Source of the DNA: Streptosporangium minutum
Lineage (GTDB): Bacteria > Actinomycetota > Actinomycetes > Streptosporangiales > Streptosporangiaceae
Direction: 5' to 3'
DNA: 32,510 bases
Assembly (NCBI RefSeq): GCF_002149035.1
Contig: NZ_NGFP01000088.1
Coordinates: 1 to 32,510 of the forward strand
Shown piece after piece: positions 10,738 to 29,122 of the stretch. How positions within the stretch are numbered: position 1 is the stretch's first letter; each line of letters opens with the position of its first letter. The notes under the pieces were generated by a model. The model ran no database searches. It saw nothing but the letters and a program-made list of their open reading frames with translations, and was not told the origin of the DNA. Made by a program: the position numbers and the translations under genes.

Positions 10738-13701
10738 ATGGACAGCCACCTTGAAGCACTGGTCCCTGCCATCGTGCGGCCTTACGTGGGCTGGATCGTC
10801 GGAATGGACTGGCCGGAGGGTGACGAGGAGCGCTGTTTCCAGCTGTCCGACGCCTACCGGGAGGTTGCCGAGGCGATCGCGGTCCTGATGGAGGACGGCG
10901 ACGATGCCTGCCTCAACGTGTGCAAATGCATGGACGGGCCGGCCTCCGACGCATTCAAGGAATATTGGAAGACGTTCACCACGGTCGACCCGCGCCCGTT
11001 GTGCCGTCTGAAGCAGGGGTGCGAGCGGGCAGGCGAACAGCTCAACGCGATGGGCCTGGAGATCGAGTACGCCAAATACATGATTCTGCTGTCCCTGATC
11101 CTGCTGGGAATGCAGATCACCTACTTCGTCGCCCTGGCCGCACCGTCGTTCGGGAGGTCGCTGAGCCTGATCCCCATGGCGTGCAGGCTGACGCAGATGA
11201 CCGTGCGGCAGATCGCCATGCGGCTGCTGCGCAACATCGCCTTGTTCACCGGGGTGATGGTCGGGATGGACGGGCTCATCCAGACCATACAGATGGCCAG
11301 TGGGCGGCGGGAGGATTGGGACTGGCTCAAGACAGGCATGTCACTGGCCGGCGGCGCGCTGGCGGGACTGACGTTCACCGGATTGGGCGTGGTGATCAAC
11401 AAGCTGGGCGGCGCGCGCATGGCGAGCGAGACGGTGGAGCGTCTGGCGATGACGGGAAGGGAGAAGACCGCCGCTTTCCTGGACAACTCGGCGTGGGGCA
11501 TGGCGACGCAGAGCATGATGGCCAACACCACCGCCGCCGTGCCGATGCTGGCGGCGAACGGTCAGCTGAGCTGGGAGATGCTCGCCAAGAGCGCCACCGC
11601 CGGCTTTCTGGGGGGTGCCGACGGCCACCTCATCACCCCGACCGGCCGTCACGGTGTCAACGGCCTGTCCAGCCCGGTCGGCCACTTCCCGGAAATGGGA
11701 GACCCCGCCGCCCCGGGCGGCCGCCACGGCGCCGGTGGTGACCCGTCCCCGCCCATCGCCCTCACCGGGAACGACCCGGTGCCCGCCGGGCTCCATCCGG
11801 CCATGGCTCCAGACGGTTCCGCCAGGGTGACGCCGCCCCATCCCAACGCGGCCGACTCGACGGTCGTCGCCTCCATCCTCCACGACACCGCGCACCCCGA
11901 TCCGGCGACGCCGTCCCCCATCGGCTCAGAAGTGATCGCCGGGGACAGGCCCGGACCTCCGCAGGGCCAGCCGACCCACAGCGGAACGGGCGTGCCTGCC
12001 CGCCCGCCCGGAGACACGCAGGCGCCGGCGGCTCCCCGCGCCCGCCCGGACACACAAGCGGGCGCCCCCGCCGCCGCACGCCCCGACACTCCCGCCGCAC
12101 GTCCCGACACTCCCGCCGCACGTCCCGACACTCCTGCTGCCCCTCGCCCCGATACCCTCGTCGCGGCCCGTCCGGACACGGCCGCCCCTCGCACCGATGC
12201 GCCGGCGGCCGCTGGAGCCCGTCCGGACACGCCCGCATTGACCGGGGAGCGGCCTGCGCCGGGTTACATAGATCGGATGCTCAACCCGGATTCGCCTTCC
12301 GGACCGCCGAAGGACGCCCCCCACCTGGCCAACGATCCCTCGACCTCCGCGCAGCCACACGAGGCACCCGTCCCAGCGTCCCGCGATGCGTCACAGACCG
12401 GTTCGGCCCCGCACGATCCCGCCGCGTCCGGTGCCGTCCCGCCACGGGGGCCCGGGGACGGGGCGCCTCCCCCTGCGGACCCTCCCCGATCCTCGGATTC
12501 AGGTCGCGGTGTGCCTCCGGACGACAAGACAGCACAGCTGCGACCCCGGGAAGACGACAAGACAGCAGGCCTGCGCCCTCGGGAAGACGACAAGACAGCA
12601 GATCTGCGCCCTCGGGAAGACGACAAGACAGCAGATCTGCGCCCTCGGGAAGACGACAAGACAGCAGGCCTGCGCCCTCGGGAAGACGACAAGACAGCAG
12701 GCCTGCGCCCTCGGGAAGACGACGCCTCCGCGCACCCCACCCCCAAAGAGATGGCAGACGACGCCTCCGCTCCGAGAGGGGCGGATGACCCTCACCCCGA
12801 TGGGGACGGTCCCGCGTCACCCCGGGTGGCGGAGCTGCTCGCCGAATTGACAACGGCAAGGGAGCGAGAGCCCCGCATACCGCCGTGGCTGGACCGTGGA
12901 ATCCATTCCGGCATCGCCGGAGAGCCCGTACTGCTGGGCGGCAAAACCGGGGGGGTGGACGGCGTAAGGCCGACCTGGTCCGTGCTGGTAGAGAAATGGA
13001 CGTTCAACGACGGCTCCCACATGATCCGAAAGGTCCTGGCGATCTCGCGAGAGGCAGACGCCGAGGTGCTGGCTGCGATAGTGGGGAAATCCTTGGGGGC
13101 CGACGTCCCCGGGGTTTACCGGGCCGACGACAGAGTCGTCTATCAGGAGTTCAAGGAGGGACAGCACAGAGCGGCGTTACCAGCGGAAGAGGTGCCGACG
13201 AGACCCGAGTTGACGCGGAGCGGCATGCGCATCAGTCTGCTCGACGTGCTGATCACCAACCCTGATCGTCACTCCTTCAACTGGTTTCTGAGTTCTGACC
13301 CGGAACTGAGATCGCCCACCGGCCAGAGGCTGGGGGTCATCGGGATCGACCACAACCTCTCGTTCGAAGACCCCAGAATTTGGGCTCCCAAAGGGGAATT
13401 CGGAACCCAGTTCGTCCGTGGTGAGCTCACACCCGACGGCGCCCACCAGATCTACGTCGGGAGGCCCAACCCGCTCAGCCCGGAGGACGTCCAGGGCATC
13501 ACGCGGGTGCTCAAAGATCCCAGGATGAAAAGGGAGTTCGAACGACGGGGACGATTGGACTGGTACCACACCATGCTCTCCCAGCTCGATATGATCGAGA
13601 GGAACGCGGTCGGGACGGAGCCAAGGATGCCGATGCCCGCACGGGTGATGCCTAAGGTGATCACACGCCCCGAGAGAAGCCCTCTCGCCTCGGAGGAGTG
13701 A
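10738..13701 (+). CDS. Polymorphic type VII effector with C-terminal PI3/4-kinase-like domain
   Basis: 987 residues. Residues 1-100 form a WXG-like helical domain as at the N-terminus of CpnT-type proteins (VGWIVGMDWPEGDEERCFQL). Hydrophobic segments lie at about 105-130, 158-180 and 196-222. Residues about 300-700 are a Pro/Ala-rich linker with ARPDTPA repeats and six DDKTAxLRPRE repeats (595-660). The C-terminal part (about 715-985) looks like a PI3/4-kinase or HipA-like fold: Lys765 in HMIRKVL, a hinge at YQEFKEGQ, the catalytic loop DRHSFN (Asp843, Asn848) and metal-binding Asp871 in GIDHNLSF. The layout fits a secreted toxin that phosphorylates a target; substrate unknown. The stop overlaps or abuts the next gene. 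Confidence 0.82.
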   Translation: MDSHLEALVPAIVRPYVGWIVGMDWPEGDEERCFQLSDAYREVAEAIAVLMEDGDDACLNVCKCMDGPASDAFKEYWKTFTTVDPRPLCRLKQGCERAGEQLNAMGLEIEYAKYMILLSLILLGMQITYFVALAAPSFGRSLSLIPMACRLTQMTVRQIAMRLLRNIALFTGVMVGMDGLIQTIQMASGRREDWDWLKTGMSLAGGALAGLTFTGLGVVINKLGGARMASETVERLAMTGREKTAAFLDNSAWGMATQSMMANTTAAVPMLAANGQLSWEMLAKSATAGFLGGADGHLITPTGRHGVNGLSSPVGHFPEMGDPAAPGGRHGAGGDPSPPIALTGNDPVPAGLHPAMAPDGSARVTPPHPNAADSTVVASILHDTAHPDPATPSPIGSEVIAGDRPGPPQGQPTHSGTGVPARPPGDTQAPAAPRARPDTQAGAPAAARPDTPAARPDTPAARPDTPAAPRPDTLVAARPDTAAPRTDAPAAAGARPDTPALTGERPAPGYIDRMLNPDSPSGPPKDAPHLANDPSTSAQPHEAPVPASRDASQTGSAPHDPAASGAVPPRGPGDGAPPPADPPRSSDSGRGVPPDDKTAQLRPREDDKTAGLRPREDDKTADLRPREDDKTADLRPREDDKTAGLRPREDDKTAGLRPREDDASAHPTPKEMADDASAPRGADDPHPDGDGPASPRVAELLAELTTAREREPRIPPWLDRGIHSGIAGEPVLLGGKTGGVDGVRPTWSVLVEKWTFNDGSHMIRKVLAISREADAEVLAAIVGKSLGADVPGVYRADDRVVYQEFKEGQHRAALPAEEVPTRPELTRSGMRISLLDVLITNPDRHSFNWFLSSDPELRSPTGQRLGVIGIDHNLSFEDPRIWAPKGEFGTQFVRGELTPDGAHQIYVGRPNPLSPEDVQGITRVLKDPRMKREFERRGRLDWYHTMLSQLDMIERNAVGTEPRMPMPARVMPKVITRPERSPLASEE
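12520..12717 (+). repeat. Six 33-bp tandem repeats inside the effector gene
   Basis: Six copies of an 11-codon unit encode DDKTAxLRPRE, with x being Q, G, D, D, G, G. Copies two to six differ only at the variable codon, so they are recent. Copy number can change without breaking the frame. The charged unit lies in the linker just before the kinase-like domain. Confidence 0.95.
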
Positions 13702-25060: not shown

Positions 25061-25396
25061 TGACCCTCCCCTCGTACTGTGGAGATCTGGCCTAAGGGGG
25101 AGGTCGGATCGTGGGAGAGACCAGACGTAGTTTCGATCCGGAGTTTCGTGCGGGTGCGGTGCGTATCGTGCACGAGACCAGGAAATCGATCGCCTCGGTC
25201 GCCAAGGACCTGGGGATCAACGCGGGCACGCTGGCCAACTGGATGCAGATGGACCGCCTGGCCCGTGAGCAGGACACCGGTGGGGAACTGACCGAGTCCG
25301 AGCGCGAAGAGCTGGTCCGGCTGCGCCGGCAGCGGGCTGAGTGGGCCAAGGAACGCGCTGAACTGGAGATGGAGCGTGATGACGCCCCTATGGTTG

Positions 25397-26497
25397 TCAA
25401 GCGGCGGTCGATGGAGGCGGTGCTGGTGACAGGGCTGCTGCGATGATCGGGAAGACCTCGCGAGCGACGTAGCGCTTGAGGCAGCGGATGATCTCTTTCT
25501 TGGATTTGCCTTCGGTGGTGCGGCGTTCGGCGTAGTTGCGGGTGCGCTGGTCACGGCTCAGACGGGTAAGGACGATGATGTAGAGCGCGCTGTTGCCGCG
25601 CCGATCGCCGCCGCGGTTGAGCCGGTGGCGGGTGGTTTTGCCGGAGGAGGCCTCGATCGGGTTGACTCCGCATAGGGCGGCGAAGGCGGCCTCGCTGGTT
25701 AGCCGGTCGGGGTTATCGCCTGCGGCGATCAGTAGGGCGGCGGCGGTGTCCGGGCCGATCCCGTGCCGCTCCAGCAGCCCTGGGGCGCAGTCTGCGACGA
25801 TTGCGGTCATGCGCCGCTGGTGGGAGCGGATCTCCTCGGTGAGCGTCAGGATGCGGCGGGCGAGGGTGCGCAGCACGCAGGTGGCGGCGGTGTGAATGTC
25901 GTCCGCTTCGGATTCGGGCAGGTCGGCGCAGCGGCGCATGAGCGTGGCAGGGCCGAGCCCGGTCAGGGATTCGCGTAGCTGCGGGTCGGCGCGGACCAAG
26001 ATGGCTCGCAGCTGGTTGATGGCCTGGGTGCGGGCTTTGATCGCCGATTCTTTCGCGATCTTGAATATGCGCAGCATCTCCACCGACCCGTCGCCGGACT
26101 TGGCCACGGCCGTGGTCCGTCCTGAAAGGACCGCTCGAGCGGCGTTTTCGGCGTCGATGGCGTCGGTCTTGCCGCGCTGGCGGCGGGTGGCCCGGTCGGG
26201 CCGGTTGACCTCGATCACCCGTACCTGGTGACGGCGCAGGTAGCGGGTCAGGGCGGTGCCGTGGGAGCTGGTGCCCTCCACGCCGGCGCGGTGCAGCCGC
26301 CCGTGGCTGCGGCTCCAGTCCAGCAGCTCGGCGTAGCCGCGGGCGGTGGCCGCAAAGGCGCGAGTGCCGAGCAGGACGCCCAGGACGGTGATCACAGCGG
26401 CGACGTGGGCGCCGGTATGGGTATCCACGCCGAGGATGATCTCCTCGTCCTGAGGGGGGACATCGGATGCGGCGGGCTCGGCGGTGGCAACGGTCAC
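25397..26497 (-). CDS. IS110-family DEDD recombinase
   Basis: 366 residues from GTG 26497 with AGGAG upstream; the frame is open further but that part overlaps the guide RNA. The RuvC-like DEDD domain has ILGVDTHTGAHVAAVI (first Asp), HRAGVEGTSSHGTAL (Glu) and RQRGKTDAIDAENAARAVLS (two Asp). The C-terminal Transposase_20 domain contains the helix-hairpin region LERHGIGPDTAAALLIAAGD and the serine-containing FAALCGVNPIEASSGKTTRH. It excises and inserts the element as a circle using a structured RNA made from the element's own end. Complete and probably active. Confidence 0.95.
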   Translation of the reverse strand: MTVATAEPAASDVPPQDEEIILGVDTHTGAHVAAVITVLGVLLGTRAFAATARGYAELLDWSRSHGRLHRAGVEGTSSHGTALTRYLRRHQVRVIEVNRPDRATRRQRGKTDAIDAENAARAVLSGRTTAVAKSGDGSVEMLRIFKIAKESAIKARTQAINQLRAILVRADPQLRESLTGLGPATLMRRCADLPESEADDIHTAATCVLRTLARRILTLTEEIRSHQRRMTAIVADCAPGLLERHGIGPDTAAALLIAAGDNPDRLTSEAAFAALCGVNPIEASSGKTTRHRLNRGGDRRGNSALYIIVLTRLSRDQRTRNYAERRTTEGKSKKEIIRCLKRYVAREVFPIIAAALSPAPPPSTAA

Positions 26498-26541
26498 GGG
26501 GCTCTCCTGAGGGCACGGTGGTGATGGATGCCGATCAGGCG

Positions 26542-26686
26542 GGGTGGTCAGGACTGTGACGGTGCATGGCAAGGCCCCTATGGGGACACATCCCCACCCG
26601 ATACGGCAGCACCGCCGGCGCCAGGGCGACAGGTCATCACGAAGGCATCGCAGCCAGTCTCAAACTGGGTCAGACCCCGGCGCCAG
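26542..26686 (-). ncRNA. Candidate bridge RNA of the IS110 element
   Basis: Lies upstream of the recombinase, where IS110-group elements such as IS621 encode the bridge RNA. First loop: stem CTGGCGCCGG (26677-26686) with its second copy (26615-26624), which pair with two G-U pairs, closing 52 bases that contain TTTGAGAC (26657-26664) and CGTGATGAC (26633-26641). Second loop: stem GGGTGG/CCACCC (26594-26599 with 26542-26547), closing CCATAGGGGC (26574-26583) and TCACAGTCC (26551-26559). CGTGATGAC equals the plus strand at 25375-25383 across the right junction; CCATAGGGGC equals the element's RE tail (25384-25393); TCACAGTCC equals the plus strand at 26705-26713 across the left junction. TTGAG is shared with the left target. 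Order and placing fit target loop, then donor loop. Confidence 0.75.
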
Positions 26687-26756
26687 GCGGCACGTCATCC
26701 ATCCTCACAGTCCTCAAGCGCTCGGTGGTCTTGTGGGTGAAGGAGGCGACGGGCCG

Positions 26757-27671
26757 GTGAGCGTGGCGGCCTTCATCGCCTCCCAGAAGACCGAGCATGG
26801 CGTTCCTCACGCGGTGGCCTGCCGGATCCTGGAGGTCTCGCAGTCCTGGTTTTACAAATGGCGAGATCACCGGCCGGGACCTCGCCGGCAACGGCGCGAG
26901 GATCTGGATACGGCGATCGCTGCCGCGTTCGAGGCCTCCGGCGCCACCTACGGGTCCCCGCGCATCACTGGCGACCTGCGCGAGCGCGGCTGGCGGGTCT
27001 CGGCCAACACGGTCGCGGCGCGGATGGCTGAGCTTGGCCTGGCAGGCCGGATGCGGCGAACACCTCGATCGTTGACGTGCCAGGGCAAGAGGCCGGCGGC
27101 ACCGGACCTGGTGCACCGCCAGTTCATCGCCGTCGCTGCGGATGTGCTGTGGTGCGGTGATGTCACCGAGATCGTCACCGATGAGGGCAAGCTGTATCTG
27201 GCCACGGTGGAGGATTTGTTCTCCCGTCGGCTGCTCGGCTATGCCATGTCCGAGCATCACGACGCTGAACTCGCGGTCGCCTCGTTGCAGATGGCCGCGG
27301 TTACCCGTGACGGCGACGTCGACGGGGTGATCTTCCATACCGATCGTGGTAGCGAGTACACCGCCGCCCGCTTCCAGGCTGCCTGCCGCTACTGGGGTGT
27401 GGTGCAGTCGATGGGCCGGGTCGGTTGCGCGCTGGACAACGCGGTGGCTGAGTCGTTCAATGCCACGCTCAAGGTCGAGTTCGTCCATCGGCATCGTTTC
27501 GCCACCCGGGCCGAGGCCCGGGTGAGGATCGCCACCTGGATCGCCGATTTCTACAACACCCGCCGCCGTCACAGCGCCGCTGACGGGTTACCACCGATCG
27601 TCTACGAACAGCGGATCATGGCTGCCCGAGCGGCCACCACGGCGAGACGTCAGCAGCTCATCGCCGCATAG
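26757..27671 (+). CDS. IS3 OrfB transposase (rve integrase domain)
   Basis: 304 residues from GTG 26757, overlapping the orfA stop by GTGA. N-terminal HTH_21 region (CRILEVSQSWFYKWRDHRPG) followed by the DDE domain: first Asp in WCGDVTEIVTDEGKLYLATV, second in VIFHTDRGSEYTAARFQAAC, Glu in ALDNAVAESFNATLKVEFVH, and the end FYNTRRRHSAADGLPPIVYE. All catalytic residues are present. Since orfA is split, the element can move only with OrfA supplied by another copy. Confidence 0.93.
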   Translation: MSVAAFIASQKTEHGVPHAVACRILEVSQSWFYKWRDHRPGPRRQRREDLDTAIAAAFEASGATYGSPRITGDLRERGWRVSANTVAARMAELGLAGRMRRTPRSLTCQGKRPAAPDLVHRQFIAVAADVLWCGDVTEIVTDEGKLYLATVEDLFSRRLLGYAMSEHHDAELAVASLQMAAVTRDGDVDGVIFHTDRGSEYTAARFQAACRYWGVVQSMGRVGCALDNAVAESFNATLKVEFVHRHRFATRAEARVRIATWIADFYNTRRRHSAADGLPPIVYEQRIMAARAATTARRQQLIAA

Positions 27672-28120: not shown

Positions 28121-28224
28121 TCGATTAATCTCCCACAACGATGCGACGACTGACCAGCTGGCAATACCCTCGAACCGTAGTGAGGGGCCACGGAGATTCC
28201 GGACAGCCATCTTACGGGCGTAGC

Positions 28225-29122
28225 CTATGCGGCTGGTCGGGACGGAAGGGACTCGTTGAGCACTTCGAGGGGCGGCCGGTAGCCGAGCGCAGAGTGCGGG
28301 CGCCGCAGGTTGAAGAACCCTTCGATATAGCGGATGACCTGCTTTTTCGCCTTGGCGCGGGTGGCGAACACGAAGCGATGGAACCATTCGTTCTTGATCG
28401 CGTTGAAGAACGACTCGGCCATCGCGTTGTCGTAGCAGACATCGGTGCGGCCGGCCGGGCGGCGGATGCCCAGGCCGGTCAGCAAGCGGCCGAACTCATC
28501 GGAGGTGTAGTTCGAGCCGCGGTCGGAGTGGAAGACGGCACCGGGCTCGATCAGGCCGGTGCCGGCCGCCGTCCGGAACGCGCCCTTGATCGGCTCGGTG
28601 CGGTAATGGTCGGCCCTCGCCCAGCCGAGGGCCGCCTTGCTGTGACAGTCGACGACGGTGGCCAGATAGAGGAAACCTTCCCAGGTGGGGATATAGGTGA
28701 TGTCGCCGACCAGCTTGGTGCCCGGCCGTTCGGCGGTGAAGTCGCGGCCGGGTAGGTCGGGGATGCCGTGAAAGTCGCCTTGCGCGGTGGTGGTGGGCCG
28801 AAACGCCCGCGTCTGGGCCGGGGACAGGCCCTGCTCGCACATCAACGCGCGGACTAGTTCGGCCGGGCAGCTCGCCCCGGCGCAGCAGGGCGGCGTGGAC
28901 CCGCCGATGGACATAGGTTTCGTGCGACTCGGCGAAAACCTCGGCGGCCGGCTGGGTGAGCAGCGCGCGGCTTTGTGCGGTGGCCGAGGTCGGCCGCTCG
29001 CGCCATTCGTAGTAGCCCGAGTCGTAGTAGCCCGAGCGGGACACGTTCAACCAGGTGCGCATCTTGACGATGGCGGGGTGGGCCTTCTCCGCATCGATCA
29101 GCTCGTACTTGGCGAGCGTCAT
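28225..29122 (-). pseudogene. IS3 OrfB, frameshifted
   Basis: Starts MTLAKYELIDAEKAHPAIVK at 29122, contains the duplicated DSGYYDSGYYEW, and runs to about 28870 (VHRRVHAALLRRGEL). It then continues in another frame (AELVRALMCEQGLSPAQTR) through the DDE domain: GDITYIPTWEGFLYLATVVD, GAVFHSDRGSNYTSDEFG, DNAMAESFFNAIKNEWFHRF. The catalytic residues remain but the one-base shift near 28870 prevents a full protein. Confidence 0.85.

Follow-up and report, generated by a model that had tools for sequence, protein, structure and literature searches.

A predicted bridge RNA and a proposed one-base core in an IS110-group element of Streptosporangium minutum

The window analysed here, the whole stretch of 32,510 nucleotides from Streptosporangium minutum, contains an IS110-group element that separates orfA from orfB of an IS3-family element and is oriented antisense to them. 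The locus raises the question of how such an element is addressed to its site, and in particular whether its noncoding left end encodes a guide RNA and what it has in common with its target. It is very probable that the left end encodes a bridge RNA and that the element follows the cycle proposed below. As read from the sequence, the build is that of IS621, from which the element differs by its core, by how long its right target guide is and, within one subclade, by a target base that the guide probably skips. The element and its setting are comprised of the following features.

25111-25380, plus strand: interrupted IS3 orfA, with the right target ATCACG at 25375-25380
25381, minus strand: shared core C at the right junction
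25382-26709, minus strand: IS110-group element, with ends set from empty IS3 sites
25382-25396, minus strand: right end (RE), 15 nt
25395-25400, minus strand: TTGACA, a −35-like box (sequence match)
25397-26497, minus strand: recombinase gene (DEDD_Tnp_IS110 and Transposase_20)
26498-26709, minus strand: left end (LE), 212 nt, encoding the predicted bridge RNA
26710, minus strand: shared core C at the left junction
26711-26720: left target of the element
26712, minus strand: target base probably left unpaired by the left guide, the third base of an IS3 Val codon
26760-27671, plus strand: IS3 orfB (rve integrase)

Elsewhere in the window, a second IS3-family orfB-like stretch (28222-28866, minus strand) is 39% identical to the orfB stretch at 26760-27668 and has one TAG inside, and a 987-aa frame (10738-13701, plus strand) carries near-identical repeats of the LRPREDDKTA type in its middle.

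The ends were set from empty sites. A pattern of the IS3 site in which some positions were unconstrained was searched in 120 genomes of the family and gave 14 matches in 7 genomes, as against 2 matches for the same pattern read backwards. At 13 of the 14 matches, L098 being the exception, the end of IS3 orfA (ERDVLKRSV) is encoded without interruption, and the intact sites read CGCTTGAG-N-A-C-[A/G]TC[A/G]CGCTC. From these sites, the target has one C, the right flank begins with ATCACG, and the preceding GT belongs to the element. The candidate right target GTCATCACG was rejected, since these sites assign its GT to RE. The initial annotation was thus right to place an IS110 element in an IS3 target, but its right junction lay three bases early; positions 25381-25383, which it had counted as target, are two RE bases and the shared C. 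With these ends and the reading frame, the element has the long left end and short right end of the IS110 group (212 and 15 nt). In its own genome it has one full match, the only other match being a fragment of 37 bases at 86% identity. A pattern search of the order that allowed at most 3 mismatches matched 24 of 345 genomes at 27 places, 11 of them exactly, and searches by pattern found copies in 0 of 22 and 0 of 35 genomes of two other families.

The recombinase shows PF01548 (1.1e-20) followed by PF02371 (5.2e-18); its GTG start at 26497 was picked by eye from an AGGAG-like site, while the longest frame begins at 26572. It is related by sequence to the solved recombinases of ISCro4 and IS621. 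The ISCro4 transposase (9t56) is the best solved relative by sequence (E 3.5e-11), and the E, DxxD, and SG regions of the two align, with the first Asp outside the aligned stretch; the comparison with ISCro4 covered the recombinase sequence. On a circle, the TTGACA box would lie 17 nt before GAGGAT, a −10-like box at 26701-26706. Among the relatives, joining the ends puts TTGAC[AG] 16-19 bases before nAnnnT in 78 of 98 elements, compared with 15 of 150 other TTGAC[AG] sites used as a control. A putative promoter would thus be formed where RE and LE meet on the circle, as judged by sequence match.

The predicted fold of LE has two modules (MFE −94.8 kcal/mol, z −3.87), in agreement with the two stem-closed loops that had been seen in the noncoding 5′ end. 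The modules and the four guides assigned to them are given here.

26609-26693, minus strand: target-binding loop module with its closing stem
26657-26665, minus strand: left target guide, GTTTGAGAC, whose last base pairs with the shared C
26633-26641, minus strand: right target guide (putative handshake guide)
26529-26608, minus strand: donor-binding loop module (limits approximate)
26574-26583, minus strand: left donor guide, identical to the RE tail at 25384-25393
26552-26559, minus strand: right donor guide (putative handshake guide)

Comparative evidence for the structure is stronger than the fold score. Both modules are clear in an alignment of 40 left ends, and the order of target loop then donor loop, as first annotated, also holds in the relatives. 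In the target-loop stem, 18 of 27 pairs are changed on both sides among 39 sequences and 91.0% of cells pair, and none of 500 shuffles reaches any of five measures. A covariance model (R1) built from these 39 target-loop sequences matched 67 times in a set of 81 sources and 94 times in one of 98, counts that include the 39 model sequences, which match by construction. For the donor module, a hand-made structure, which was drawn from the tested sequences and therefore leans towards itself, has 80.4% of cells paired (0/500 shuffles), 9 pairs changed on both sides (37/500), and further pair types that 98/500 shuffles reach. RNAalifold, applied to the same module, found covariation in 1 of 11 pairs and paired inside the donor guide instead. 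The covariation is thus very strong in the target-loop stem and modest in the donor-loop stem, so that the earlier expectation of covarying closing stems holds fully for the former only. An Rfam gathering scan of the window gave no match. It appears that LE contains the structured bridge-RNA region of the IS110 group, with guides that match target and donor.

Three long matches that had been pointed out between LE and the surrounding sequence are all exact. The left donor guide equals the RE tail in 10 of 10 bases, 26633-26641 is complementary to the right junction at 25375-25383 in 9 of 9, and 26551-26559 is complementary to the left junction at 26705-26713 in 9 of 9. Positions 26498-26700 were shuffled 2,000 times with dinucleotide content preserved; a longest match equal to the one seen arose in 0 shuffles for the RE-tail guide, 23 for the right-junction guide, and 0 for the left-junction guide, and all three matches arose together in 0 of the 2,000 shuffled left ends. 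The two right guides each cross a junction. In the right target guide, 26636-26641 pairs with ATCACG of the target, 26635 corresponds to the shared C, and 26633-26634 to the RE bases GT; in the right donor guide, 26554-26559 pairs with CTGTGA at the start of LE, and 26552-26553 agrees with the target dinucleotide to the left of the C. The two matches noted at first are exact, but they fall partly on partner DNA rather than on cognate DNA. The left donor guide lacks a match to the two RE bases that adjoin the C, which counts against the explanation preferred here. The fourth guide, at first regarded as weak, does exist at 26657-26665 and is weak solely in the ungapped register, where it fits the target in 5 of 9 bases; it fits in 8 of 9 if base 26712 is skipped.

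If these segments are guides, they should follow the targets of related elements. A scan of genome contigs kept 80 of 98 relatives. In protein searches, the order yielded matches in 56 of 345 genomes and the class in 26 of 394, and another 40 regions were added. In a set of 40 elements, the left target guide (11 positions) agrees with its own flank at 8.63 positions on average, compared with 5.9 after reassignment (30 unique pairs), and the right target guide (6 positions) at 4.84 compared with 2.32 (25 unique pairs), with 0 of 20,000 permutations as high for both; relatives are not independent samples, so these permutation counts and those below are not probabilities. In the larger set, 144 of 161 elements were kept after removal of duplicate left flanks and of those too near a contig end, and unique guide/target pairs were used. 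Here the left target guide scores 6.12 of 9 against 3.33 (112 unique pairs) and the right target guide 3.75 of 6 against 1.73 (83 unique pairs), and for both guides 0 of 5,000 reassignments is as good. The agreement is also present in elements of less than 55% identity (5.50 against 3.26 and 3.24 against 1.73). Outside the IS3 subclade, 90 of 134 elements fit in at least 7 of 9 bases; the remaining 44 fit below this, in part because ends were set automatically in divergent loci. Among mismatches, 22 of 56 in the left target guide are wobble-compatible and 14 are other transitions, and in the right target guide the numbers are 18 and 8 of 63; both comparisons are confounded by codon structure and G+C content, and an excess of G·U-compatible mismatches is not claimed. 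The initial annotation had named unchanged loops at unrelated targets as evidence against its reading. At other targets the loops have changed and fit those targets, which, together with the covarying target-loop stem, argues for the bridge-RNA reading of the left end.

With regard to the core, 49 close elements (at least 55% identity, C at both junctions) were compared. In LE, the C is followed by T in 47 of them, whereas in the target it is followed by A in 27, T in 8, C in 7, and G in 7; in 50 more distant elements, both bases vary. As the target base varies while the LE base is T, target and donor have only the C in common. The guess of a single shared C, made from the window, is thereby upheld by the relatives and the empty IS3 sites, as is the view that the core differs from the CT of IS621, given that T follows the C in the target of only 8 of the 49. 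In the window, the target reads CA and the donor CT; a CT core was rejected for it, and the IS621-type CT dinucleotide in both target and donor is absent. The position of the C relative to the IS621 core can be read in two ways: the guide length followed by the linker U suggests core position 9, and the handshake register suggests position 8.

In structures of IS621, bases beside the right guides pair with partner DNA after strand exchange (from the parts of PMC11208158 used here). In our set, the right target guide continues past the C partner with two bases that are the same as the RE bases of its own element in 79 of 100 cases (AT 67, GT 8, TT 4) and differ in 21. The dinucleotide by which the right donor guide extends past the C is identical to the target dinucleotide on the left of the C in 35 of 40 (GA 24, AA 11), the disagreements being GA/CA in 3, GA/GT in 1, and GA/GG in 1. 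On unique combinations (4 and 5), 3,330 and 4,066 of 20,000 permutations are as high, which is not significant because few states occur. The handshake reading would explain why the right target and right donor guides each cross a junction.

The genes at the junctions were scanned in 46 of 68 close elements, namely those with an open flank piece of at least 45 aa in the chosen frame. When left flanks were translated so that the C took the third codon position, 25 of 39 pieces matched NCBIfam transposase models at E ≤0.001, many of them below the curated cut-off because the flank pieces are partial. The other 14 comprise two matches to the phage/plasmid-like TIGR03299, one ergot/NmrA-like match, and 11 pieces without a match. 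The 8 pieces of the IS3 subclade were taken as the 8 Pfam HTH_Tnp_1 matches, an assignment made from the count; including these, 33 of the 46 scanned close elements are inserted in other transposases. In the window, the target consists of the IS3 orfA codons for Asp-Val-Leu-Lys-Arg. It is tentatively proposed, with some doubt, that the clade consists of RNA-guided hyperparasites of other ISs, which would aim at conserved transposase codons through one shared base, with a wobble base left unpaired in the IS3 subclade and perhaps G·U pairing elsewhere. A somewhat doubtful but possible alternative is that the clade lands in any repeated or harmless sequence that fits the guide, and that transposases are over-represented as common repeats. 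It would account for the 13 of 46 scanned elements without a transposase-model match (one NmrA-like, two TIGR03299, and the rest nothing) and, among the matches listed, for several more distant relatives at TGA-C sites. It is opposed by the constancy of the junction in model coordinates, which is position 231 in 9 of 9 IS630 matches, 239 in 7 of 7 IS5_3 matches, and, for IS256, 299 in 3, 322 in 2, and 193 in 1, and by the match of the guides to those transposase codons. The left flanks of the close relatives L115 and L116 lie in the phage/plasmid-like TIGR03299 (DUF932) gene, in a stretch of Cys-Asp-Asn codons, and thus the clade is not limited to transposase targets. Among the matches listed, distant relatives at ...CTGA-C sites, with multiple copies per genome, include L172, L174, L175, L202, L176, L179, L186, L187, L183, L184, and L185. 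These sites look like gene stop codons, which would be a harmless landing site.

Within the IS3 subclade, the left guide GCTTGAGAC (GTTTGAGAC in the window) faces sites of the form GCTTGAG-N-AC. All 10 subclade elements that passed the duplicate-flank and contig-end filter (144 of 161) fit in 3-5 of 9 bases without a gap and in 8-9 with one skipped target base, always at the same place. There are 13 distinct subclade rows among all loci fetched, of which L228 has no recognised left end, and each of the 12 resolved distinct sites that remain carries the extra base (G in 7, C in 5). Where this base, at 26712 in the window, is C (5 of 12), the right donor guide extension has no match to it. In 13 intact IS3 sites, the same position is C in 5, A in 5 (all from one genome), and G in 3; it is the Val codon's third (wobble) base. 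A skipped target base adds at least 3 matches in five elements outside the subclade, of which only L119 reaches 7 of 9, and a skipped guide base does so in seven.

These observations could also arise, though this is unlikely, if an ordinary bridge RNA had made a near-cognate, off-target insertion that was later carried along with its host IS3, leaving the skip and the single C as its traces. IS621 does tolerate off-target sites (from the parts of PMC11208160 used here), and L106 and L164, both in genome G323, have 585 identical bases upstream of the left guide, so that IS3 and IS110 insert may have been copied and moved as a unit. The five elements outside the subclade point the same way, although L119 stands alone among them in the quality of its gapped fit. 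Such an origin is at odds with the presence of the extra base in all 12 resolved sites opposite a nearly constant guide, and with the single C of close relatives at other targets. In addition, among nine elements the identity of the element does not keep step with that of its IS3 flank (78.6% and 89.1% for L003/L016, 90.2% and 83.3% for L003/L004), which argues against a single old insertion carried along. As a further alternative, LE could serve only as a structured leader in the mRNA of the transposase, with the matches left over from earlier recombination, in favour of which stands the frequency of repeats in IS ends. This is very improbable: across relatives, the target-guide matches vary according to where the element is inserted, they are found in loops whose closing stem covaries, and the recombinase has relatives that are known to work with a bridge RNA.

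The preferred reading, a bridge RNA encoded in LE, can be set beside known systems. From the parts of PMC11208160 and PMC11208158 used here, IS621 resembles the element in the bridge RNA within a long left end, the target loop before the donor loop, and the four guides, and further in the related recombinase; it also has an RE-LE junction promoter and handshake guides, to which the predicted promoter and the putative handshake bases of the element would correspond. In the same parts, IS621 and related orthologues have a CT core in target and donor with an almost invariant T, whereas only the C is common here and the next target base varies; the right target guide of IS621 covers four bases including the core, whereas here it covers the six bases after the C; and, unlike in IS621, a target base would be skipped in the IS3 subclade. 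The seekRNA of ISEc21, as far as described in the parts of PMC11187229 used here, is likewise a target-matching RNA from an upstream noncoding region, with the bottom-strand match before the top-strand match, and its target is also a conserved transposase region of IS3-family elements. In the IS3 transposase, ISEc21 is aimed at the codons that surround the second catalytic Asp, and the present element, compared by description, at the end of orfA in antisense. The IS1111 group also belongs to the DEDD recombinase family with a guide RNA (from parts of PMC11187229 and PMC11208160), but its RNA is located in the right end, which has longer subterminal repeats, inverted and of 7-17 bp. A bridge RNA of this type in a long right end is absent from the element, whose RE is 15 nt and whose RNA module lies in LE.

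The location of the RNA varies among the relatives. Target-binding loops were found both before and after the recombinase gene in L171 (920 and 2163), L195 on the minus strand (886 and 2135), L192 (802 and 2050), and L197 (861 and 2128; all positions 0-based, element orientation). The left guides of both loops look like the left flank in L171 and L195; the right guides fit the right flank poorly. It is possible that these two-loop relatives are a step in a move of the bridge RNA between the ends. In L035 (3526-3598), L037 (4027-4099), and L067 (4011-4094), the only matches of the target-loop model lie downstream of the recombinase gene, and L035 has a donor-guide-like stretch after its match as well. 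Judged by these model matches, the three would have the bridge RNA in RE, while being related to an element with the bridge RNA in LE.

Briefly, the cycle that we propose, should the element be active, would begin with its excision as a circle, on which the joined RE and LE would act as a promoter and transcribe the bridge RNA. The donor loop would hold the RE-LE junction and the target loop the IS3 orfA site. The DEDD/Ser recombinase would then swap strands at the one shared C, the probable position of the cuts, and after the exchange the two-base handshake guides of each loop would pair with the partner DNA. In the IS3 subclade, the left target guide would pair with GCTTGAG and AC and leave the variable wobble base between them unpaired.

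The RNA-guided principle is known already, as is the targeting of transposase codons (ISEc21, in the parts of PMC11187229 used here). What seems new, from the sequence comparisons, is an element that appears to have only one DNA letter in common with its target and a guide that appears to skip one variable letter. Among the matches listed from the open-licence literature, no title or abstract dealt with a single-base core or a skipped target base, which speaks weakly for novelty. As programmable tools for writing DNA, bridge recombinases attract wide interest. A one-C core with a free next target base would relax the CT rule of IS621, and a guide that skips a target base would amount to a new pairing rule; provided that the skip holds true, recombinases of this class could do without unbroken pairing along the target, and the target code would be wider. 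The natural agreement of the handshake bases would support a mechanism that has so far been argued from IS621. The elements also hint at a neat strategy, in which other mobile elements are struck in codons that they have little freedom to alter.
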